Positions 11,504 through 44,985 of a DNA stretch of 64,000 bases are shown piece after piece (within the stretch, counting starts at the first letter, position 1; each line of letters opens with the position of its first letter). This stretch comes from Oscillospiraceae bacterium (lineage in GTDB: Bacteria > Bacillota > Clostridia > Oscillospirales > Oscillospiraceae), in contig SVLV01000002.1 in the NCBI GenBank assembly GCA_015067765.1, positions 62,001-126,000 of the forward strand, written 5' to 3'. Below the pieces are notes generated by a model. That model did not search any database. It was not told the origin of the DNA and saw only the letters and a list, made by a program, of their open reading frames with translations. The translations under genes were made by a program, and so were the position numbers.

Positions 11504-11995
11504 TTACTGATAGCGTGCACGCAGCTCAGCATCGGCCTCCAAAACGGCAGCGGTATCCTTGGCACGGCCCTGAGCCAGCTTCTCGGCCAGTGCGGCATCG
11601 GTAACAGCCATGATTTGAATGGCAAGCAGAGCGGCGTTCTTGGCGCCGTTGATACCGACAGTGGCCACAGGGATACCGGGAGGCATCATAACGGTAGAAA
11701 GGAGGGCATCCGTTCCATCCAGATTGCTGGAGGAACAGGGGATGCCGATCACGGGCAAAGTGGTGTTGGCAGCCAGGGCGCCAGCCAGATGTGCGGCCAT
11801 GCCTGCAGCAGCAATGAGAACAGAAAAGCCGCTCTCCCGCGCCGTAGCAGCAAACTCTCTTGCCTGGTCCGGACAACGGTGAGCGGATAAAACGCGCACT
11901 TCAATAGACACACCATACTCCTGCAGCACGGTGATGGCTTTTTCGACAATGGGCAGATCGGATTTGCTTCCCATGACGATACCAACTTTGCTCAT
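11504..11995 (-). CDS. purE: 5-(carboxyamino)imidazole ribonucleotide mutase
   Basis: VGIVMGSKSDLPIVEKAI...LSAHRCPDQ...AAAGMAAHLAGALAANTTLPVIGIP. Confidence 0.95.
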   Translation of the reverse strand: MSKVGIVMGSKSDLPIVEKAITVLQEYGVSIEVRVLSAHRCPDQAREFAATARESGFSVLIAAAGMAAHLAGALAANTTLPVIGIPCSSSNLDGTDALLSTVMMPPGIPVATVGINGAKNAALLAIQIMAVTDAALAEKLAQGRAKDTAAVLEADAELRARYQ

Positions 11996-31788: not shown

Positions 31789-34023
31789 TTACTTCTTCTT
31801 GATCTTGTTCAGCTGGGCATTCATCTCCAGCAGCTGCTCCTTGGTCATTTCCATGCCCATCATGCCGCCGGCCATGGAGATCAGGCGCAGAACGGTGAAA
31901 CCGCCCATCATCTGCATCATGTTGTCGTTCAGTTCGAAGCCGGCAACCTTCTCGCCCTTCTTGGGCATCATCTTGGCAACCATACCCATAAAGAACAGCT
32001 TGCCCTTCATGGTAGCCATGATGTCGCCGATCTTATCGTTGAGGGAGAAGTAGCCCTCAACCTCATTGATGTCAAACCAGTTAAGGATGGCACCCTTCTC
32101 CTGCAGGCGGTAGGCATTGTTGAACTCAGCAACCTTGCGGATGACACTCTCGTCCTGATAGTCGCCGGCAACGGCCACCAGCTTGGTCTCCTCAGCGGTG
32201 TTGGGCACGTCGAAGTAGAAGAAATGATCCTCAGCGGCCTTCTTCCCCAGGGAAACACCATTGGCGAACAGCTCCACCTCAGGCAGGTTGGAATAAACGG
32301 TGACCTTGGTCACATCTTCCACACGGTCGATGTAACGCTTGCCGCACAGGTGAACGAAGGGATCATCAGACAGCCATGCCTTGTAGGCATAGAAGGAATC
32401 CTTCTTGTACTTGCGGTCGAAGGTCATCAGACCCTTGTGGTTCTGGCCGTTCTCGCCGCCCTCATTACGGGCGTCAGCACCGAAGTCGAACATGTTCCAC
32501 ACATGGGTGGCCCAGATGTACTTACGGGTGAACAGTTGCTTGATCAGCTCCTCATGATAATAGGCCTGATATTCCTCGGTGTAGTCACCCTGGGTGGGCT
32601 TGGAGGTGTGCCAGTTCAGGGCCTCGCAGCCATACTCGGAGCAGCCGATGGGAATATTGGGATAAGTGGCATGGAACTTATCGAACCAGGGGCCGTTCAT
32701 GGAGGTGTCACCGCCGTACCAGCCGAAGTAGTGGTTGTAGGAGACCACATCGGGGATCTGGATATAGGGATCGGTAATGGGGCACATGGAGACGGAAGCG
32801 ATGGTGGTCAGACGGGTCTTATCCATCTCATGGCACATATCGTTCAGGATGTTGTGATTTTCCAGCAGATCCTCGGTAGAGCCGGCAATGGTGATCTCGT
32901 TGGACAGACCCCAAACAACGATGGAGGGGTGGTTGTAGTTCTGAACAACCAGTTCCTTCATCTGGGAGATGGTGTTTTCCCGTGCGGTAGGCATATGTTT
33001 GGAGATGTAGGGGATCTCAGCCCAGATGACCAGACCCTTCTCATCGCACAGATCGTAGAAATACTGGTCGTGCTGATAGTGGGCCAGACGGATGGTGGTG
33101 CAGCCCACTTCGCAGATCAGCTCGATATCCTCCTCGTGATGCTCGGGCAGCAGGGCATTACCAATGCCCCACCGGTCCTGATGACGGGAAACACCGCGCA
33201 GAGGATACTCCTCACCGTTGAGGATGAAGCCATTCTCAGGATCAATCTTGAAGGTACGGCAGCCAAAGCGGGTGCTGACGCAGTCAATCACATTGCCATC
33301 TTCCAGCAGCTCGATCTTGGCGGTATAAAGATAGGGATCTTTGCGGCCGTGCCACAGATGTACCTCAGGGATATACAGCTCCACCATGGTGTCATCGCAC
33401 TCCACACTGGCAACCTCGCAGCCGCAGGCGGAGGAGATGGTGTAGCGCAGGGACTGACCCATCTTGCTGTTGGTGAGCCAGGTCTCGATGGTGACACGGG
33501 CATCCTTGTCCTCCACGATGGGGGTAACAGCAAGGCCAGGGCCGCCGTAGTAATCCAGATCAAAGTGGGAATTGGCCACACAAATCAGGTTCACATTGCG
33601 GTACAGGCCGCCATAGAAGGTGAAGTCAGCAGTCTGGGGATAAACCGTCTCGTTGGCGCTGTTGTCCACCGCGATGACCAGCAGGCTGGAGACACCCAGA
33701 TGCTCGGTGATATTGACACGCCAGGTGGAGTAGCCGCCGTCGTGGTGAGCCAGATGCTTGCCATCCAGATACACATCGGCGGAGGAGTTGGCACCGCACA
33801 GCTCCAGATAATACTGGTCTGCCACGGGCAGGTCAGCCTTTACGATGGTCTTGGCATAGTAGGCAGTACCGCGGAAATAGTCGTTGTCGCCGTCCTGGCC
33901 GTCGATGGCATTCCAGGAGTGGGGCAGATTGACCCAGTTCCAGTCAGCGGGCATGGAAGCGGGCACAGCGGAAGCTTGCTTGGTGAATGCCCACTTGCTG
34001 TTCAGATTCAGTACAGTTCTCAT
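31789..34023 (-). CDS. GH2 glycosidase, likely beta-glucuronidase/beta-galactosidase, with Met-rich C-terminal extension
   Basis: NLPHSWNAIDGQDG, WGLSNEIT acid/base, GCSEYG nucleophile, QNHKGLMTFDRKYKKDSFYAYKAW; ATG at 34023 with RBS aaggagg (track start 34116). Confidence 0.88.
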   Translation of the reverse strand: MRTVLNLNSKWAFTKQASAVPASMPADWNWVNLPHSWNAIDGQDGDNDYFRGTAYYAKTIVKADLPVADQYYLELCGANSSADVYLDGKHLAHHDGGYSTWRVNITEHLGVSSLLVIAVDNSANETVYPQTADFTFYGGLYRNVNLICVANSHFDLDYYGGPGLAVTPIVEDKDARVTIETWLTNSKMGQSLRYTISSACGCEVASVECDDTMVELYIPEVHLWHGRKDPYLYTAKIELLEDGNVIDCVSTRFGCRTFKIDPENGFILNGEEYPLRGVSRHQDRWGIGNALLPEHHEEDIELICEVGCTTIRLAHYQHDQYFYDLCDEKGLVIWAEIPYISKHMPTARENTISQMKELVVQNYNHPSIVVWGLSNEITIAGSTEDLLENHNILNDMCHEMDKTRLTTIASVSMCPITDPYIQIPDVVSYNHYFGWYGGDTSMNGPWFDKFHATYPNIPIGCSEYGCEALNWHTSKPTQGDYTEEYQAYYHEELIKQLFTRKYIWATHVWNMFDFGADARNEGGENGQNHKGLMTFDRKYKKDSFYAYKAWLSDDPFVHLCGKRYIDRVEDVTKVTVYSNLPEVELFANGVSLGKKAAEDHFFYFDVPNTAEETKLVAVAGDYQDESVIRKVAEFNNAYRLQEKGAILNWFDINEVEGYFSLNDKIGDIMATMKGKLFFMGMVAKMMPKKGEKVAGFELNDNMMQMMGGFTVLRLISMAGGMMGMEMTKEQLLEMNAQLNKIKKK

Positions 34024-34057
34024 GGGAAGGGACCTCCTTGTTAGAAATATGATTGCG

Positions 34058-34093
34058 AAAAAACGGCAGGCAGACCATATGACCTGCCTGCCG
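34058..34093 (-). terminator. Terminator/attenuator between GPH transporter and GH2 gene
   Basis: CGGCAGGCAG...CTGCCTGCCG followed by TTTTTT on the minus strand. Confidence 0.75.
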
Positions 34094-34134
34094 CTTTGAT
34101 TGGACGATAGCAGCAAAATGTTTATACGATTTGC

Positions 34135-35613
34135 TTAGTTGGATGCCTTGCGTGCAGCCAGCTCCTCGTTCATCTTGGCCATGGTCTTCTTGTCCAGGTT
34201 GTAGATGACGGCAATGCCGATGAACTGCATAACAGCGGAGAACAGGTACAGGCCTGCAACCAGCCAGCACATGTTGTAGGAGGTAGCAGCAGACTGACCG
34301 CCGGTACCCAGATCGGACACATAACCCAGAGCGCCCATGATCAGCAGAACGATGGAGGGGCCAACGCCCTGAGCCAGCTTACGGAAGAAGGAATGCAGGG
34401 AGTAAACGGTACCCTCTTCGCGCTTGCCGGTCTTCCACTCGTTGTAGTCGATAGCATCGGCCATCAGAGCCCAGGACACGCAGGTGTACACGCCCATACC
34501 GACACCGAAGACAACCAGACCCAGCATGTAGAGAATCAGAGCAACGCTCTTGTTGGGGACCATGGGGAATACCAACATGATCACACCGCCGACCATGGAA
34601 ACGATGGTACCGGCAACAGAGGCTTCCTTCTTACCGAACTTGTTAACGATCTTCTTAATGAAGGGCATGAACAGGAACATGGGCAGGAAGCCGATCAGCA
34701 TAACAACACCGGACAGCTGAGCCATACCGAAGTAGGTAGCGAACATGATGGTGTTGGCGGTGGAAGCGGACTGCATACCCAGGAACATACCCATAGCAGC
34801 CAGAGTGGCACCGACAGCGGGACGGTTCTTCATGAAGTTGGCAAAAGCGGAAACAACGCTGAACTTCTCGCCGCCCTCACCGGCCTTGACGGAGTTCTCG
34901 TCGACGCGGATAGTGATATTCTTCAGCATGAACTGGAAGGCGATGAAGCCCAGACCGCCCATCAGCAGAGCAGCCAGGAACACGCGGTCACCCAGCAGAG
35001 TCTCAACCTGAACACCAGTCTCAGGATTCAGAATGGGGTTGCCGGCAGCGTCAACTTCCTTGCGCCAAATGATCATGGGCAGGATGATGCCGGGGATCAT
35101 ACCACCGACCATGGAGCCCACGGAACGCCAAGTGGACAGCTGAGCGCGCTCACCGGGATCCTCAGTGACCAGAGACAGCATGGAGCCGTACGGAACGTTA
35201 GCAACCGTGTAAGCAGCATCCCAAATGATATAGCCAACGATGAACAGGACGGCCTTGATCACAACGGGAGCGTTGGGGAAGGGCAGGAACACAGCGGCGC
35301 CGGCAAACAGCAGGCCGCAGGAACCCACGAAGATGTACTGCTTGAACTTGCCACGCTTGTAAGCTCTTCTGTCGGCGTCGATCATGGAGCCGATGATGGG
35401 ATCGTTGACAGCGTCCCAGATCTGCACCAGCAGCAGCAGGATGGACAGCAGACCGGTTTCCAGCATCATGTAGACCAGCCAGAAGGTCTGAACGGTGCCC
35501 TTCAGGGCGAAGCTCATGTTACAACCAAAGTCACCGGCAGCATAAGCGACCTTGTCGCGCATGCCAAACTTGCGGTAACCCTTGGCGTCGAGCTGTACGG
35601 GTTTCTTTGCCAT
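34135..35613 (-). CDS. GPH-family (glycoside-pentoside-hexuronide:cation) symporter
   Basis: MAKKPVQLDAKGYRKFGMRDKVAYAAGDFGCNMSFALKG...; MelB-like; ATG at 35613 (track start 35754). Confidence 0.88.
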   Translation of the reverse strand: MAKKPVQLDAKGYRKFGMRDKVAYAAGDFGCNMSFALKGTVQTFWLVYMMLETGLLSILLLLVQIWDAVNDPIIGSMIDADRRAYKRGKFKQYIFVGSCGLLFAGAAVFLPFPNAPVVIKAVLFIVGYIIWDAAYTVANVPYGSMLSLVTEDPGERAQLSTWRSVGSMVGGMIPGIILPMIIWRKEVDAAGNPILNPETGVQVETLLGDRVFLAALLMGGLGFIAFQFMLKNITIRVDENSVKAGEGGEKFSVVSAFANFMKNRPAVGATLAAMGMFLGMQSASTANTIMFATYFGMAQLSGVVMLIGFLPMFLFMPFIKKIVNKFGKKEASVAGTIVSMVGGVIMLVFPMVPNKSVALILYMLGLVVFGVGMGVYTCVSWALMADAIDYNEWKTGKREEGTVYSLHSFFRKLAQGVGPSIVLLIMGALGYVSDLGTGGQSAATSYNMCWLVAGLYLFSAVMQFIGIAVIYNLDKKTMAKMNEELAARKASN

Positions 35614-35836
35614 AATGATTTCCTCTTTTCCTTTTTTTGTAATCTGCCGCAACTGTATACAGAATGGCAGAAATATACAAATATATAGTACCAAAAAGAC
35701 ATGAAAGACGTGAGTAATATTTTTGGCCATTTCTGCAAAAATTTCACATGACATCTTGCAAATGAGGCCGAATTATATGATAATAAAAAATAAATGCTGG
35801 AAAATCTGTGCAGACTATCCAAAAGGAGGGTGCAGG

Positions 35837-37081
35837 ATGTTTTACCAAACCGAGATCACATATCTGACCAGAGCATTGAAGAAGCTGCATTTGGACACCA
35901 CACAGATCAGAATCGACGATTCGGCACAGCAGCATCTCTCGTTCGGCCTGGAACCGGCATCCCTGCAGGACGCATCCTTTGAGCGGGCATTTTATGAGAT
36001 GCTGCACCGCGCAAAAGATCGTACCATCTATAAGATGTCGGATGCGCTGATGTCTACCTATCTTGTTATCCTGCTTCCCCAGACAGAAGAGAGAGTTGCC
36101 CTGGTGATTGGGCCGTATTTGACCAGTGAACCCACAAGAGAGCAGCTTTTTGAGGCAGCTGAGCGCATAAAGCTTCCCACGGCAGAGATTTCAAAACTGG
36201 AAACCTATTTTGGGCGGACTCCTGTTATCCGGGAGGAGAATCTCCTCCTGGCAATGTTACACACACTGGGCGAGACCATGTGGGGAGAAGAGAATGCCTA
36301 TGAGACTATGGATCTGAACTGGGAACTGGGCGAGTACTCCCAACGGAATATGGATCACAATCCTCATCGTGCGGAAGAGATGCTGGAACGGATGAGACAG
36401 ATGGAGCAGCGCTATGCCTTTGAAAATGAGCTGATGGACCGCGTGTCCCGGGGAATGACCCACCGCGCAGAAGTGATGATCAGCGGGATTGCCACAGGAA
36501 TGATGGAGCAGAGGCAGGCAGATCCGGTGCGCAATATCAAAAACTATGGAATCATCGCCAATACCCTACTGCGCAAGGCGGCCGAGCGAGGAGGGGTACA
36601 CCCGGTGCACCTGGATGCCGTGTCGGCCAAGTTCAGTTCCCGGCTGGAGAATGTGATGAAGGTCACCGAGGGACATGAACTGCTGGGAGAGATGGTGCGG
36701 AGTTATTGCCGTCTGGTGCGCAAGCATGCGACGCAGCAGTATTCGCCGCTGATCCAGAAGACGATCGCCTATATGGAGGCGGATCTCTCTGCCGATCTGA
36801 GTCTCAGCCATTTGGCGCAGGTGCAGAATATCAATGCCAGCTATTTATCCGGCCTGTTTCGTCGGGAAACCGGAAAAACCATCACGGAACATGTCAACGA
36901 AAAGCGTATGGAACTGGCTGCTCATTTGCTGCGCAGTACACACCTGCAGATTCAGACAATTGCACAGCACTGTGGTATCTCTGATGCCAATTATTTCTCC
37001 AAAGTGTTTAAGCGCATCTATTTGGTTACACCGAAAGAATTCCGGGAAAGCACCCAAAATTATTTTCGGCGCAAGGAGTAG
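35837..37081 (+). CDS. AraC-family transcriptional regulator
   Basis: C-terminal LSLSHLAQVQNINASYLSGLFRRETGKTITEHVNEKRM...IQTIAQHCGISDANYFSKVFKRIYLVTPKEFR. Confidence 0.92.
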   Translation: MFYQTEITYLTRALKKLHLDTTQIRIDDSAQQHLSFGLEPASLQDASFERAFYEMLHRAKDRTIYKMSDALMSTYLVILLPQTEERVALVIGPYLTSEPTREQLFEAAERIKLPTAEISKLETYFGRTPVIREENLLLAMLHTLGETMWGEENAYETMDLNWELGEYSQRNMDHNPHRAEEMLERMRQMEQRYAFENELMDRVSRGMTHRAEVMISGIATGMMEQRQADPVRNIKNYGIIANTLLRKAAERGGVHPVHLDAVSAKFSSRLENVMKVTEGHELLGEMVRSYCRLVRKHATQQYSPLIQKTIAYMEADLSADLSLSHLAQVQNINASYLSGLFRRETGKTITEHVNEKRMELAAHLLRSTHLQIQTIAQHCGISDANYFSKVFKRIYLVTPKEFRESTQNYFRRKE

Positions 37082-37084
37082 GCC

Positions 37085-37912
37085 CTATTCGATATGAGGG
37101 GCATCCTCCCGGGGCGCATGGCCGAAATGTGCCCGGTAGGCACGGTAGAAGGAGGAGTAGTCCAAAAAGCCGCAGGCAATGCAGGCGTTGCCTGCAGATT
37201 CCCCGCGCTGGATCATAGCGCGTGCCGCCAGAAGCCGCTTGATGGTCACATATTCCCAGAAGGAGGATCCGGTGGTTTGCTGGAAGATCCGGCTGATCTG
37301 CGACCTGCTGCGGTAAAAGGTGTCCGCAAGAAACTGCAGGGAGAGGGGCTCGAAGAGATGCTCGTTCACATAGGAGACCACTTTTCCATGGAGTGATTGC
37401 GATTCAAATGATGTGAAGCTATTATCCTTGTCATAGAAACTTTGTAATGTGGTGAGAAAAAGCATCAGTCGGGCAGTCAGATTCAAGCGGACATTGGGAA
37501 TATCCGCAAAGGAAAAACCGGAAAAAGCAGCCCGGAGGCGACCTTCGGGGTCCTCAGAAGCCGGGTAGCAGTTGTGCTGCCCCAGGGGGCGATCCAGGAA
37601 TGGACGAAGAAGATGACTGTCCGGAGCCAGCTGCTCTAAAAGAGCGGGAGAGAAGTGGATGGCGATCCGCTCGTAGGGCTCATCAGGGCTGATGGTCAGC
37701 GTATGGGTCTCTGCACTGCGCATGATCAGAATGTCCCTGGGCTGCAAGGGATAGGAGGTTCCTTCTATCAGATAGCTGCCATGGCCGGAGAGAAAATAAT
37801 AGATCTCCATCCACTCATGGGCATGCATCACATAGTCTTCCTGGCGGGGAGCGGGATCCAATGTGTGGTGACTGTACAAGCGGTCGTCACGATAGGAAAA
37901 AATATGTGGCAT
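37085..37912 (-). CDS. AraC-family transcriptional regulator with cupin-type N-terminus
   Basis: HAHEWMEIYYFLSGHGSYLIEGTSYPL...; C-terminal HTH FLDYSSFYRAYRAHFGHAP. Confidence 0.92.
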   Translation of the reverse strand: MPHIFSYRDDRLYSHHTLDPAPRQEDYVMHAHEWMEIYYFLSGHGSYLIEGTSYPLQPRDILIMRSAETHTLTISPDEPYERIAIHFSPALLEQLAPDSHLLRPFLDRPLGQHNCYPASEDPEGRLRAAFSGFSFADIPNVRLNLTARLMLFLTTLQSFYDKDNSFTSFESQSLHGKVVSYVNEHLFEPLSLQFLADTFYRSRSQISRIFQQTTGSSFWEYVTIKRLLAARAMIQRGESAGNACIACGFLDYSSFYRAYRAHFGHAPREDAPHIE

Positions 37913-38078: not shown

Positions 38079-39158
38079 ATGGAACTGAATCTGCGCAAAA
38101 ACTGCCGTTACGCCATTGCATGTCCCACCAGCATGGGTGTGCGCATCACTCCGGACAACCGTATGGCTGTCCATGCCAGCAACCACTTCTACATGCAGGC
38201 CACCAGCGCTGAGAGCAATGTGCTGAATGTGGCATCTTCCCTGGGCAATGAGTGCCTGGTGCTGACCAAGTTTGTCAAGGGCAGCCCCATCGCTCAGTTT
38301 ATCAAGAATGATCTGCGCTCCCGCAATATCAACTTTGAGGGGGTTGAGGTGGATCAGGGCGGCCCCTGGGGCTATCGCCATCAGTTCAACATTGCAGATA
38401 GTGGCTTCGGTATGCGTGCTCCCCGCGTGTGGAACGACCGCGCCGGTGAGGTTGGCACCACGCTGAGTGCTGACGAGTTTGATTTTGAGCGCATCTTTGG
38501 TGCCGAGGGTGTTGCCATCCTGCACATCTCCGGTCTGATTGCCGCTATGAGCCGCTCCACCACCGAGTTCTGCCTGGCTTGCGCCCGCGCTGCCAAGGAG
38601 CACGGTACCCTCGTCTCCTTTGACCTGAATCACCGCGCTACTTTCTGGAAGGGCCGCGAGGAGGAACTGCATGCTGCATTCCACGAGATCGCTTCCGTGG
38701 CCGATATTCTGGTGGGCAACGAAGAGGACTTCCAGCTGTGCCTGGGCTTTACCGGTCCTGAAGCCGGCGGCAAGGATCTGTCCGGCAAGATCGAGAGTTT
38801 CAAGGGTATGATCCGCGAGGTCAAGGCCAAGTATCCCAACGCAAAGGTATATGGCACCACCCTGCGCCAGGTCATCAGTGCCAACGAGCACATGTGGGGC
38901 TGCCTGCTCCATGCTGACGACGAGTGGTGCGTGGAGGAACCCCGCAACATTCAGGTGATGGATCGTATCGGCGGCGGCGACGGCTTTACCGGCGGCCTGC
39001 TGTACGGTCTGCTGCAGGGCTGGGAGCCCGCCAAGTGCGCTCAGTTCGGTTGGGCCACTGGTGTTCTGGCCGCCAGCAGTCTCAACGACTATGCCCAGCC
39101 CGCCGATGAGAAGCAGGTTTGGGATATCTATGCCGGCAATGCCCGCGTACAGAGATAA
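38079..39158 (+). CDS. PfkB-family sugar-acid kinase (2-keto-3-deoxygluconate kinase-like; substrate uncertain)
   Basis: SFDLNHRATFWKG; DRIGGGDGFTGGLLYGLLQG ribokinase signature. Confidence 0.88.
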   Translation: MELNLRKNCRYAIACPTSMGVRITPDNRMAVHASNHFYMQATSAESNVLNVASSLGNECLVLTKFVKGSPIAQFIKNDLRSRNINFEGVEVDQGGPWGYRHQFNIADSGFGMRAPRVWNDRAGEVGTTLSADEFDFERIFGAEGVAILHISGLIAAMSRSTTEFCLACARAAKEHGTLVSFDLNHRATFWKGREEELHAAFHEIASVADILVGNEEDFQLCLGFTGPEAGGKDLSGKIESFKGMIREVKAKYPNAKVYGTTLRQVISANEHMWGCLLHADDEWCVEEPRNIQVMDRIGGGDGFTGGLLYGLLQGWEPAKCAQFGWATGVLAASSLNDYAQPADEKQVWDIYAGNARVQR

Positions 39159-39176: not shown

Positions 39177-40628
39177 ATGAAGAAAGCTGATATTGGTCTG
39201 GTCGGTCTGGCCGTCATGGGTGAAAACCTGGTCATGAATATGGAGTCCAAGGGCTTCACCGTGGCCGTCTATAACCGTACTACTGAGAAGGTCAAGGCCT
39301 TTGTGGAAGGCCGCGCTGCCGGTAAGAATATCATCGGATGCTACAGCATCGAGGAACTGGTTTCCAATTTGGAGAAGCCCCGCAAGGTCTTTATGATGGT
39401 CAAGGCCGGTCAGGCAGTGGACCAGTTGATCGAGCAGCTGCTGCCCCTGCTGGAGGAGGGCGACATCCTTATCGACGGCGGCAACAGCCATTTCCCCGAC
39501 ACCATCCGCCGCACCGAGTATGTGGAGAGCAAGGGTCTGCTGTATGTGGGCTGCGGCGTCTCCGGCGGTGAGGAGGGTGCACTGAAGGGTCCCTCCATGA
39601 TGCCCGGTGGTTCTGTGGCTGCCTGGCCCTTCGTGAAGCCCATCTTCCAGGGCGTCTGCGCCAAGGTGGAAGACGGCGCTGCCTGCTGCGATTGGGTTGG
39701 CGAGAATGGTGCCGGTCACTTCGTCAAGATGGTCCATAACGGCATTGAGTATGGTGATATGCAGTTGATCTGCGAGGCTTACCAGCTGATGCGTGACGGT
39801 CTCGGCATGAGCCCCGAGGAGATGCACGAGGTGCTGACTGCTTGGAACGAGACCGAACTGGACAGCTATCTGATCGAGATCACCCGCGACATCCTGGGCT
39901 ACAAGGATGAAAACGGTGAGACCACGGTAAACTACATCCTGGATACTGCCGGCCAGAAGGGTACCGGCAAGTGGACTGCTGTTGCTGCTCTGGATGAGGG
40001 TGTGCCTCTGACCCTGATCGGCGAGGCTGTCTTCTCCCGCTGCCTGTCCGCCATGAAGTCTGAACGTGTGAATGCGGCCAAGGTGTTCCCCAAGAGTATC
40101 CCTGCTTTCGAGGGCGATAAGGCTGCCTTTATCGAGTGCATCCGTAAGGCTCTGTATGCCTCCAAGATCATCTCCTATGCCCAGGGCTATACCCTGATGC
40201 GTACGGCAGCCAAGACCTATGGCTGGAACCTGAACTACGGCGGCATCGCCCTCATGTGGCGCGGCGGCTGCATCATCCGCAGCGTGTTCCTGGGCAAGAT
40301 CAAGGAAGCTTACGATAAGAACCCCGCTCTGGAGAATCTGCTGCTGGATGACTACTTCGCCGAAACCATCAAGACTCTGGTGGATGCATGGCGCGAGGTG
40401 GTTGCCTATGCCGTGAAGATCGGCGTTCCCATGCCCGCATTCTCTTCTGCACTGAACTATTTCGACGGCTACACCACTGAGTGCCTGCCCGCTAACCTGC
40501 TGCAGGCTCAGCGTGATTACTTCGGCGCCCATACCTATGAGCGTATCGATCAGCCCCGCGGAAAGTTCTTCCATACCAACTGGACCGGCCACGGTGGCAA
40601 CACCTCTGCAGGTACCTATAATGCATAA
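39177..40628 (+). CDS. gnd: 6-phosphogluconate dehydrogenase (decarboxylating)
   Basis: IGLVGLAVMGENLVMNMESKGFTVAVYNRT; IDGGNSHFPDT; GVSGGEEGALKGPSMMPGG; FHTNWTGHGG. Confidence 0.96.
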   Translation: MKKADIGLVGLAVMGENLVMNMESKGFTVAVYNRTTEKVKAFVEGRAAGKNIIGCYSIEELVSNLEKPRKVFMMVKAGQAVDQLIEQLLPLLEEGDILIDGGNSHFPDTIRRTEYVESKGLLYVGCGVSGGEEGALKGPSMMPGGSVAAWPFVKPIFQGVCAKVEDGAACCDWVGENGAGHFVKMVHNGIEYGDMQLICEAYQLMRDGLGMSPEEMHEVLTAWNETELDSYLIEITRDILGYKDENGETTVNYILDTAGQKGTGKWTAVAALDEGVPLTLIGEAVFSRCLSAMKSERVNAAKVFPKSIPAFEGDKAAFIECIRKALYASKIISYAQGYTLMRTAAKTYGWNLNYGGIALMWRGGCIIRSVFLGKIKEAYDKNPALENLLLDDYFAETIKTLVDAWREVVAYAVKIGVPMPAFSSALNYFDGYTTECLPANLLQAQRDYFGAHTYERIDQPRGKFFHTNWTGHGGNTSAGTYNA

Positions 40629-41445
40629 GGGCATTATTGCCCTGGATCTGGACGGAACACTGCTGAACTCCGATAAGCAGTTGACTCCCGGTAATTTAAG
40701 CGCTTTGGAGCGTGCTGCGGCGGTGGGCTACGTAATCGTGCCCACCACCGGCCGCTTTTTCGGTGCCATGCCGGAGGTGATCCGTCAGCTTCCGTTTTTG
40801 CGCTATGCCATTACCATCAACGGTGCGCAGGTGGAGGATCTGAAAACCGGGGAAGTGATCTATCGGGCCGAGATGCCATGGCAGCAATGCATTGAACTGA
40901 TGCAGCTGCTGGATACGCTGCCGGTGATCTATGACTGTTATATGGACAACGATGCCTTTATGACAGAGGAGCTGAAGCAGTATATCGATGAGTTTATCTC
41001 CAGTCCCCATTACCGCAAGATGTTCCATGATCTGCGAAAGCCGGTCCCTGAACTGAAGGCTTATCTGGCACAGCGGAAAACGGATATCCAGAAGGTGCAG
41101 TTTTTTATGAAGGATCCTCAGCTGCGTCTGCAGTTGCTGGAGGAGTTGCCCCAACGCTTCGCGGATATCTGCGTGTCTAGCTCGGTACCCGGCAACCTGG
41201 AGGTCAATCAGGCCCGGGCCAATAAGGGAGAGGCGTTGCTGGCTCTTGCGGCGCATCTGGGCCTGAAGAGGGAGGATACCATCTCCTTCGGTGACGGACT
41301 CAACGATATCTCCATGCTGAAGACAGCCGGTATCGGTGTGGCAATGGCCAACGCCTGTCCGGAAGCTCTTGCGGCAGCCGATCGAACGACCCTGTCCTGT
41401 GACGAGGACGGTGTGGCATATGCAATTGATCAAATCTGTTTTTGA
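40621..41445 (+). CDS. Cof-type HAD hydrolase
   Basis: MHKGIIALDLDGTLLNSDKQLTPGN; SFGDGLNDISML; overlaps gnd 3' end (track start 40513). Confidence 0.9.
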   Translation: MHKGIIALDLDGTLLNSDKQLTPGNLSALERAAAVGYVIVPTTGRFFGAMPEVIRQLPFLRYAITINGAQVEDLKTGEVIYRAEMPWQQCIELMQLLDTLPVIYDCYMDNDAFMTEELKQYIDEFISSPHYRKMFHDLRKPVPELKAYLAQRKTDIQKVQFFMKDPQLRLQLLEELPQRFADICVSSSVPGNLEVNQARANKGEALLALAAHLGLKREDTISFGDGLNDISMLKTAGIGVAMANACPEALAAADRTTLSCDEDGVAYAIDQICF

Positions 41446-41470: not shown

Positions 41471-42319
41471 ATGAATCTTTCTCTGAAGCCGGATATGACC
41501 GGTAAGGTAGTTGTTATCACCGGTGGCGCAGGCGTTCTGTGCCGCGAGTTCGCCAAGGCACTGGCCCTGTGCGGTGCCAAGGTTGCTATTTTGAATCGCA
41601 CCCTGTCCAAGGCAGAGGAAGTGGCTGCCGAGATCTGTGCTATGGGCGGCGAGGCTGCTGCCGTGCAGGTGGATGTGACCGATAAGCAGAGCGTAGAGGC
41701 TGCTCACGAGGCAGTTCTGGCCCGCTACGGCAAGTGCGATATCCTCATCAACGGCGCAGGCGGCAACCATCCCCGTGCCACTACCGATCAGGAGTATTTC
41801 TCTGCTGAGGGTCTGGACAATGATACCAAGACCTTCTTTGATCTGGACCAGGATGACATCCAGTTCGTGATGAATCTGAACTTCATCGGCACTCTGCTGC
41901 CGACCCAGGCCTTTGCCCGCGATATGCTGGGCCGCCAGGGCTGCAGCATTCTGAATGTCAGCTCCATGAACGCATTTACTCCCCTGACCAAGATCCCCGC
42001 TTATTCCGGCGCCAAGGCAGCCATCTCCAACTTTACGCAGTGGCTGGCCGTCCACTTCAGCAAGGAGGGCATTCGCGTCAACGCAATTGCTCCCGGTTTC
42101 TTCTCCACCGAGCAGAACAAGAAACTGCTGTGGAATGAGGATGGTACGCCCACTGCCCGTACCGGTAAGATCCTGGCTGCCACCCCCATGGGTCGTTTCG
42201 GCGCTCCTGAGGAACTGCTGGGTGCCCTGATGTTCCTGGCAGATGACAAGGCGTCCTCCTTCGTTACCGGTATTGTCATCCCCGTGGATGGCGGCTTCAG
42301 CGCCTACAGCGGCGTGTAA
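41471..42319 (+). CDS. SDR-family D-mannonate oxidoreductase (fructuronate reductase)-like
   Basis: VVVITGGAGVLCREFAKAL; YSGAKAAISNFTQWLAVHF; resembles Bacillus UxuB/YjmF-type SDRs; uronate context. Confidence 0.82.
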   Translation: MNLSLKPDMTGKVVVITGGAGVLCREFAKALALCGAKVAILNRTLSKAEEVAAEICAMGGEAAAVQVDVTDKQSVEAAHEAVLARYGKCDILINGAGGNHPRATTDQEYFSAEGLDNDTKTFFDLDQDDIQFVMNLNFIGTLLPTQAFARDMLGRQGCSILNVSSMNAFTPLTKIPAYSGAKAAISNFTQWLAVHFSKEGIRVNAIAPGFFSTEQNKKLLWNEDGTPTARTGKILAATPMGRFGAPEELLGALMFLADDKASSFVTGIVIPVDGGFSAYSGV

Positions 42320-42331
42320 GGAGGCCTTTGG

Positions 42332-43606
42332 ATGGAACAGTTTCTCTATTCTCCCCGTGAAGAGGGGTTGACCGCTGAAGAGATCCGCGGCGCGCTGCTG
42401 CAGACTCTGGAGGGCCGTCAGCTGAAGCATGTGCTGATCATTCCTCCGGACTATACCCGTTTCCATTCCAACTCCGGTTTTATCACCAATGTTTATTACC
42501 ACGCACTGACCGATATGGGGTGCGAGGTGGACATCCTTCCTGCCCTGGGCACCCATGTGCCTGTTACGCAGGAGGAGGCCGCCCATATGTTTGGCGACAT
42601 CCCCTATGAGAAGTTCATTCCCCACAACTGGCGCACCGATGTGGTGAAACTGGGCGAGGTGCCCGCCTCCTATCTGGAGGAGATCACCGATGGCCTGTGG
42701 CATGATCCTGTTTCTGTGGAGATCAATCGTCTCGTCATGGATGAGAAGTACGATCTGATCCTGTCCGTGGGTCAGGTGGTGCCCCATGAGGTGATCGGCA
42801 TGGCAAACCATGCCAAGAACCTCTTTGTGGGTGTGGGCGGCAGCGATATGATCAACAAGAGCCATATGGTCGGAGCTGTCTATGGCATGGAGAAGGTGAT
42901 GGGCAAGGACCATGCTCCCGTCCGCAAGATCTTTGATTACGGCATGGAGCACTTCCTGAACCAGCGCCCCATCCTGTTTGTACTGACTGTGACTACGGCA
43001 CCCGGTGGAAACATCAAGACCCACGGCCTGTTTATCGGCGATACCCGCAAGGTGCTGGAAAATGCCATTGAGCTGGCCCAGAAGAAGAATATCGACTTCG
43101 TGGAGACCGGCATCAAGAAGTGCGTGGTTTACCTGAATCCGGAGGAATTCCACAGCACCTGGCTGGGCAATAAGTCTGTGTACCGTACTCGTATGGCCAT
43201 CGCCGATGGCGGCGAGCTGCTGGTACTGGCCCCCGGTGTAGAGCGTTTCGGTGAGGACGATACGGTGGATCTGCTGATCCGCAAGTATGGTTACCGCGGA
43301 CGTGAGTATACGCTGGAGCAGTTTGAAAAGCCGGAGAACCAGGATCTGCGCGATAATATGGGCGCTGCAGCACACCTGATCCACGGCTCTGCCGATGGAC
43401 GCTTTACCATTACCTATGCAGTGAAGGACATCACCAAAGAAGAGGTGGAGGGCGTCGGTTTCCAAGCCGCTGACTATGAGCAGATGGTGCAGCGCTATGA
43501 TCCCGAAAAGCTGCAGCCCGGGTATAACACCATGCCCGATGGCGAAGAGATTTATTATATCCCCAACCCCGCTCTGGGTTTGTGGATCAATAGGGAGAAG
43601 TTCTGA
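42332..43606 (+). CDS. LarA-superfamily (nickel pincer) hydroxyacid racemase/epimerase-like protein
   Basis: PPDYTR, GTHVPVTQEE, VPHEVIGMANHAKNL...KSH; spacing H-x9-K-x15-H matches LarA H174/K184/H200. Confidence 0.85.
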   Translation: MEQFLYSPREEGLTAEEIRGALLQTLEGRQLKHVLIIPPDYTRFHSNSGFITNVYYHALTDMGCEVDILPALGTHVPVTQEEAAHMFGDIPYEKFIPHNWRTDVVKLGEVPASYLEEITDGLWHDPVSVEINRLVMDEKYDLILSVGQVVPHEVIGMANHAKNLFVGVGGSDMINKSHMVGAVYGMEKVMGKDHAPVRKIFDYGMEHFLNQRPILFVLTVTTAPGGNIKTHGLFIGDTRKVLENAIELAQKKNIDFVETGIKKCVVYLNPEEFHSTWLGNKSVYRTRMAIADGGELLVLAPGVERFGEDDTVDLLIRKYGYRGREYTLEQFEKPENQDLRDNMGAAAHLIHGSADGRFTITYAVKDITKEEVEGVGFQAADYEQMVQRYDPEKLQPGYNTMPDGEEIYYIPNPALGLWINREKF

Positions 43607-44985
43607 TGAAAGCTTTTATGAATGAGGAGTTTCTGCTCTCCAATGAGACGGCCAGCCGGCTCTTCCATGAGCATGCAGAGCATTGCCCCATTATCGATTA
43701 CCACAATCATCTGTCCCCGAAGGATATTTTCAACCGTCGCCGCTATGAGAATCTGACTCAGCTGTGGTTGGAGGGTGACCACTATAAGTGGCGCTGCATG
43801 CGTGTGTGCGGTGTGCCAGAGGAGTATGTAACCGGTAATGCGTCCGATTGGGAGAAGTTTGAGCAGTTTGCGACCATCATGCCCCGGCTGATCGGTAGCC
43901 CTGTTTATCACTGGGCGCATTTGGAACTGCAGCGCTACTTCGGTATTCACACGCCTCTGACGGCCGATACCGCCAAGGAAATCTGGGAGAAAACAGCTGA
44001 GCAGCTGAAGGGTGAGGGCTTTGATGCTGTTTCTCTTCTGCAGAAGATGCATGTACAGATCCTCTGTACCACCGACGATCCCGCCGATGATCTGCAGTGG
44101 CATCGTAAGCTGGCAGGGGAGGATGTGGGCTTCCGGACGCTGCCGTCCTTCCGCCCTGACCGTTTCCTGCACATTGATCAGCCGGCATGGTCCACTGCGC
44201 TGCAGCAGTTGAGTGAGCGCTATGGTGCGATCACCGACTGGGCAAGCCTGTTGGAAGCGCTGAAGAAGTCCCTGGATTTCTTCTGCGACAGCGGCTGCCG
44301 TGTGACGGACCACGGTTTCCTGCGTTTCCGCTATGGCACAGGCGATCCTACTGCTGTAATGGAAAAAGCCTTAACAGGTGCTGTGCTGACTGAGGAGGAG
44401 GTGTCTGCCTATCAGGGTGCGCTCCTTCGCTTCCTGGCAGGTGAGTATACTGCTCGCGGCCTGACCATGCAGCTGCATCTGGGACCCATCCGAAACAATT
44501 CTCCGAAACTGTACCAATCCTTTGGCGCGGATGCCGGCGGTGACAGCATTGGTGCTGCCACGGATGCATTCCTGCTGAGTGCCTTTTTGGGCGATCTGGA
44601 GGGTGCAGATCAGCTGCCGAAGACGATCCTGTATAACCTCAATCCGGTGGATAGTGCCATGCTCTCCACCATGGCAGTCAACTTCGCCTCCAACGGTGCC
44701 AAGGTACAGTATGGTGCAGCCTGGTGGCTGTTGGACCATATCCGCGGTATCCGTGAGCAGATGGATCAGCTGCTGGAGACCGGTCTGCTTTCCGGTTCTG
44801 TCGGTATGCTGACGGACTCCCGCGCCTTTACGTCCTTTGTCCGCCATGAATATTTCCGCCGCATCCTTTGCGATAAGCTGGGTGTACTGGTGGAACAGGG
44901 GCAATATCCCTGTGACATGGAGACTTTGGGCAATATGGTGGAGGATATCTGCTGGCGCAATGCAGTGTCCTATTTTGGATTCTAA
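43606..44985 (+). CDS. uxaC: Glucuronate isomerase
   Basis: ASRLFHEHAEHCPIIDYHNHLSPKDI; LCTTDDPADDL; MLTDSRAFTSFVRHEYFRRILCD. Confidence 0.96.
   Translation: MKAFMNEEFLLSNETASRLFHEHAEHCPIIDYHNHLSPKDIFNRRRYENLTQLWLEGDHYKWRCMRVCGVPEEYVTGNASDWEKFEQFATIMPRLIGSPVYHWAHLELQRYFGIHTPLTADTAKEIWEKTAEQLKGEGFDAVSLLQKMHVQILCTTDDPADDLQWHRKLAGEDVGFRTLPSFRPDRFLHIDQPAWSTALQQLSERYGAITDWASLLEALKKSLDFFCDSGCRVTDHGFLRFRYGTGDPTAVMEKALTGAVLTEEEVSAYQGALLRFLAGEYTARGLTMQLHLGPIRNNSPKLYQSFGADAGGDSIGAATDAFLLSAFLGDLEGADQLPKTILYNLNPVDSAMLSTMAVNFASNGAKVQYGAAWWLLDHIRGIREQMDQLLETGLLSGSVGMLTDSRAFTSFVRHEYFRRILCDKLGVLVEQGQYPCDMETLGNMVEDICWRNAVSYFGF

Follow-up and report, generated by a model that had tools for sequence, protein, structure and literature searches.

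The gene at positions 42332..43606 (+ strand) of the 64-kb stretch of Oscillospiraceae DNA analysed here (hereafter, the window) raises the question of what reaction a LarA-like protein could catalyze among genes of sugar-acid metabolism, and from where it could obtain its cofactor, the nickel-pincer nucleotide (NPN). The reading frame starts with ATG and encodes a 424-residue group 18 LarA homolog (LarAH18), which we predict to be an NPN-dependent D-mannonate/D-gluconate 2-epimerase. A preliminary description of the locus had proposed a LarA homolog with intact catalytic residues, and the reading frame proved to be real: the protein contains the Pfam domain Lar_N (5e-14) and matches GntE2, the D-gluconate 2-epimerase of Thermotoga maritima (LarAH20, PDB 4NAR), in phmmer (1.4e-31). 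From the alignment to GntE2 and LarA, we predicted seven catalytic or NPN residues, D40, R43, H75, H152, K162, H178, and K281, whose equivalents in GntE2 are D38, R41, the histidine of GTH, H154, K164, H180, and K287, respectively. R43, K162 (the tether), and H178 (the nickel ligand) are invariant in 48 homologs, as are the two catalytic histidines, H75 and H152, together with D40 and K281. The offsets read earlier from the sequence, 10 residues from His to Lys and 16 from Lys to His, are exact (H152-K162 and K162-H178) and equal those of GntE2 and of H174/K184/H200 in LarA (LarA residue numbers from PMC7583248).

An AlphaFold2 model of LarAH18, built from 48 window and locus sequences (pLDDT 95.1, pTM 0.91), has the two-domain fold of LarA. 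When the model was searched with Foldseek, 4NAR ranked first (E 3.9e-30, TM 0.81), lactate racemases came next (TM 0.69-0.75), and all 19 matches below 0.001 were LarA-type. The residues singled out in the preliminary description fall on the active-site positions of GntE2 and LarA, and because the phmmer match to 4NAR, the model, and the Foldseek matches agree, the resemblance to LarA and GntE2 is homology and not chance. LarAH18 and GntE2 share the fold, the catalytic and NPN residues, a glutamate at the first specificity position, and alanine and histidine at the α14 positions. They differ in that the structural alignment has only ~23% identity, and in that LarAH18 has V where GntE2 has S after HE, GMxNxxK in place of GFSGGLK, N rather than G ahead of the catalytic lysine, and a PfkB-family kinase in its operon. 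With the lactate racemase LarA of Lactiplantibacillus plantarum (5HUQ, 6C1W; TM 0.70-0.75), LarAH18 shares the fold, the H-10-K-16-H spacing, and the proposed chemistry, whereas the pocket residues F175, F176, W358, and T359 of LarA are E, V, A, and H in LarAH18, and the genes around LarAH18 are carbohydrate genes.

LarAH18 is a clear member of a known family. The NCBIfam profile NF052594 (LarAH group 18, "putative hexonate epimerase") scored 632.6 bits (cut-off, 500) over nearly the full length (residues 10-419 on profile positions 2-410), and LarAH18 has the same loop, catalytic residues, and NPN residues as this group, with nothing that excludes membership. Group 18 was predicted to be a hexonate epimerase, without an assay, by Desguin et al. 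2020 (PMC7583248), and we found no assayed group 18 enzyme in the literature examined. The lactate racemase profile NF033504 scored 26.4 bits against a cut-off of 460, and the F, F, W pocket of lactate racemases is absent, with E, V, and A in its place. The preliminary description had called this pocket divergent, but within its own family it is not: E153, V154, A347, and H348 match the published D-gluconate 2-epimerase (GntE) signature, for which the usual residues at the four specificity positions, equivalent to F175, F176, W358, and T359 of LarA, are E, V, A, and H (2024 study, PMC11770544). These four residues are invariant in the 48 homologs; the placement of A347 and H348 rests on the alignment to A351 and H352 of 4NAR. 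The earlier argument that a change from GFSGGAK to GMANHAK indicates a non-lactate substrate stands in its conclusion, since LarAH18 is very probably not a lactate racemase, but not in its evidence: the gluconate epimerase GntE2 has GFSGGLK at the aligned loop, and therefore the loop does not separate lactate enzymes from sugar-acid enzymes. We also considered GMANHAK as the sign of a novel pocket and rejected this, as the motif is common to the whole of group 18, essentially throughout which GMxNxxK is found.

The gene neighborhood, which the preliminary description did not mention, points to the likely substrate: LarAH18 sits in a glucuronide operon. Six genes on the + strand follow one another with gaps of 18, 1, 25, 12, and -1 bases. 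They encode a PfkB-family kinase resembling 2-keto-3-deoxygluconate (KDG) kinase (38079..39158; PF00294; best PDB match, the KDG kinase 2AFB, 3.7e-32), the decarboxylating NADP 6-phosphogluconate dehydrogenase Gnd (39177..40628; TIGR00873, 761 bits, cut-off 427), a Cof-type HAD phosphatase (40630..41445; TIGR00099, 167 bits, cut-off 137), an SDR-type D-mannonate oxidoreductase (fructuronate reductase; 41471..42319; NF006132/PRK08277, 449 bits, cut-off 281), LarAH18, and the glucuronate isomerase UxaC (43606..44985; NF002794, 534 bits, cut-off 387; PF02614, 577 bits), which overlaps the LarAH18 stop codon by 1 base. An AraC-type regulator (37085..37912, - strand; PF12833, PF02311) diverges from the operon, and a second one lies at 35723..37081 (+ strand; PF12833). 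Upstream and on the opposite strand are a GPH-family glycoside/hexuronide cation symporter resembling glucuronide transporters (34135..35754; TIGR00792, 224 bits, cut-off 231; PRK09848, 156 bits, cut-off 528) and a GH2 β-glucuronidase (31789..34116; NF050095, 561 bits, below the cut-off of 950) that is very close to the solved enzymes 6MVH and 6MVG (1286 and 1215 bits in phmmer, respectively).

The PfkB-Gnd-SDR-LarAH18 order is retained in related genera. Among the best 80 genome loci plus the window, which were drawn from Clostridia, Spirochaetes, Mollicutes, and others and in which many contigs end early, we found Gnd within 8 kb of LarAH18 in 61, PfkB in 43, the SDR in 31, UxaC in 23, and, in 11, a reductase of the mannitol dehydrogenase type that is closest to fructuronate reductase; the Cof-type HAD phosphatase is kept in 17 of the ~80. 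A Saccharobesus litoralis plasmid (L160:11419-13188) carries a natural fusion in which a gluconokinase domain of the GntK/IdnK type (184.8 bits; cut-off, 113.75) precedes a group 18 domain (618.9 bits); larE, larB, a gene of the tagaturonate epimerase family, gnd, and uxaC come after it. A plasmid of Catenovulum adriaticum carries, in sequence, uxaC, a TRAP transporter, the gluconokinase gene gntK, LarAH18 (620.9 bits), larC, larE, and larB, and in a Kiritimatiellae locus (L109) larB lies beside LarAH18. The fused or adjacent kinases and the linked lar genes tie group 18 to NPN and to gluconate phosphorylation. A Pseudoflavonifractor locus (L123) contains an FGGY kinase that is closest to gluconokinase, though below the cut-off. 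Different kinase families at one place would support our proposal that the operon PfkB is a gluconate (or mannonate) kinase. As a separate observation, the PfkB, Gnd, SDR, and group 18 operon also occurs in Mollicutes-type genomes, those of Peloplasma aerotolerans and Acholeplasmataceae UBA6235 (L131:10001-11260 and L125:10001-11263).

We then compared LarAH18 with the mannonate dehydratase UxuA, which was not found in the window genome, across 401 genomes of the family, of which 115 have UxaC and 83 have UxuA; LarAH18 is carried by 36 above the cut-off and by 3 more as partial matches. Among the UxaC-positive genomes, UxuA is absent from 25 of the 29 LarAH18 carriers (present in 4) and is present in 66 of the 86 genomes without LarAH18 (Fisher P = 2.2e-9). 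Shared descent of the genomes makes this value optimistic, but the trend itself is plain. In three genomes from the same genus as the window, all without LarAH18, UxuA is present instead. A plain comparison over all 401 genomes gives little signal (UxuA in 5 of 36 carriers vs 83 of 401 overall) because most have neither gene. This mutual exclusion points to a replacement of UxuA by LarAH18. UxaC is also found in genomes with neither UxuA nor LarAH18 (G011, G029, G035, and 17 other family genomes). The KDG-kinase-like PfkB (38079-39158) adjoins Gnd in a genome in which UxuA was not found and may be an unrecognized gluconate or mannonate kinase.

The GntE signature, the fold of 4NAR, the operon partners, the kinase linkage, and the exclusion of UxuA lead us to the reading that LarAH18 is an NPN-dependent C2 epimerase converting D-mannonate to D-gluconate and bypassing UxuA, to which we assign a probability of roughly 0.7. 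Glucuronate would be converted to D-mannonate by UxaC and then the SDR oxidoreductase, and LarAH18 would invert C2 to give D-gluconate. The chemistry would be a proton-coupled hydride transfer as for LarA, with H75 and H152 as the acid/base pair, NPN tethered on K162, and H178 as the nickel ligand; we infer the substrate, the occupancy by NPN, and the specificity of the kinase. The gluconate would be phosphorylated, most likely by the operon PfkB, and Gnd would oxidize the product to ribulose-5-phosphate. The operon would thus replace the route through UxuA, KdgK, and KDPG aldolase, and glucuronate freed from drug- or plant-glucuronides would probably be rerouted into the pentose phosphate pathway. 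This bypass fits the T. maritima pathway of the same type proposed by Rodionova 2012, as far as it is cited in PMC6978723, and would extend it to gut and rumen bacteria. A named branch of the nickel-pincer enzymes, for which assays were not found in the literature examined, now has a specific predicted reaction. Its operon, its fusion to gluconokinase, and its mutual exclusion with UxuA assign group 18 to the use of glucuronides by gut bacteria, at a step after a β-glucuronidase of the type by which drug glucuronides are reactivated. The locus is of value for this pathway, which can be tested, and for the cofactor puzzle described below.

Some observations count against the epimerase reading: the operon kinase resembles KDG kinase and not the known gluconokinases, larB, larC, and larE were not found in the window genome (79% complete), and in Lactobacillus suebicus extracts the kinase acts first and the epimerase second (PMC6978723). 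The last of these suggests an alternative in which PfkB is a mannonate kinase and LarAH18 epimerizes 6-phosphomannonate to 6-phosphogluconate, an orphan activity of L. suebicus, whose extracts contain both the mannonate kinase and the 6-phosphomannonate epimerase with the genes unidentified (PMC6978723). R285, R287, and R357, which are invariant in group 18 and are K, Q, and T in GntE2, could hold the phosphate, and 6-phosphogluconate is the substrate of Gnd whichever order applies. However, LarAH18 carries the specificity residues of GntE, an enzyme that acts on free mannonate; in the two plasmids, the kinase fused to group 18 or next to it belongs to the GntK/IdnK type (gluconate kinase family); and mannonate is not a substrate of E. 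coli GntK (PMC6978723). With the GntE signature and the GntK fusion weighed against it, we consider the kinase-first order unlikely and favor the order through free gluconate. The L. suebicus pathway (Valk et al. 2020) and the operon would both join the uronate isomerase route to Gnd without UxuA; in L. suebicus, the kinase and epimerase steps come in the opposite order to that of our reading.

Somewhat less probable still, with a probability of about a tenth, is that LarAH18 epimerizes C2 of a different hexonate, or of a uronic or aldaric acid in the same pathway (e.g. altronate or glucarate), with gluconate as only a side activity. Desguin et al. 2020 suspected the same of group 19, which has a high Km for mannonate (PMC7583248), and some group 18 loci in Kiritimatiellae and Verrucomicrobia lack the Gnd/PfkB context, but the conserved partners UxaC, mannonate oxidoreductase, and Gnd, together with the replacement of UxuA, point to mannonate.

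That no cofactor genes are adjacent to LarAH18, as noted earlier, was borne out and extends to an apparent absence from the window genome and many related genomes. In searches of the window genome (1.54 Mb, 79% complete), larC had no match and larB and larE had none above the cut-off. Among the 36 group 18 genomes of the family, larC was found in 17 and missing in 19 (the piece of larC in G124, L064, is a short fragment of the C-terminal part, and G124 was counted among those lacking it). Of the 17 with a completeness of 94% or more, larC was not found in 7 (G005, G061, G038, G008, G374, G286, and G165), and in the first four of these larB and larE were also not above the cut-off. Incompleteness alone would give 7 losses in 17 with P ~2e-7 if losses were random; all assemblies are drafts, and the main caution is the loss of an accessory block in binning. 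In 15 of the 17 group 18 genomes checked for larB and larE, the three genes are all present or all absent together; G139 (larE and a partial larC, with no larB above the cut-off) and G057 (larE only) depart from this pattern. The active site is unchanged, and the NPN residues are invariant in genomes with and without larBCE. We considered whether group 18 contains a distinct clade that is independent of NPN and rejected this, since the presence and absence of larC are scattered on the LarAH18 tree: the larC label changes 11 times, at least 5 of which are forced by starred branches, and is no more clustered than shuffled labels. In the four larC-minus LarAH18 pairs with measurable dS, dN/dS is 0.07-0.24; the other pairs are saturated. 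A racemase of lactate or another small 2-hydroxyacid, or a protein that no longer performs NPN chemistry, is very improbable, for although the NPN synthesis genes were not found in the window genome, the LarA profile score is 26 against a cut-off of 460, all NPN residues are invariant with or without larBCE, and dN/dS is well below 1 where measurable.

If the absence is real, the candidate explanations are uptake of NPN or a precursor, another synthesis route, or a gene that does not function; the intact residues and the low dN/dS speak against this last candidate. We suggest, tentatively and at odds well short of even, that group 18 carriers unable to make NPN take the cofactor or a late precursor from other members of the community, or that a second NPN route exists. 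In the former case, NPN would serve gut and rumen bacteria as a nickel cofactor shared like a vitamin. Such sharing can be tested directly, given that larC (and, where checked, larB and larE) is repeatedly absent beside an unchanged active site. A literature search for NPN salvage gave no match, and the opposite mismatch, larBCE without larA, has been published (PMC11796402). Two weak matches were examined and set aside: a larB-like match in the window (about 11609-11995, - strand), which scored 40 (LarB cut-off, 175) and probably represents PurE, and a second LarA-like match elsewhere in the window genome (L002; 22 bits, below the cut-off), whose reading frame, judged by eye, encodes a 4Fe-4S ferredoxin-type protein, probably DUF362.
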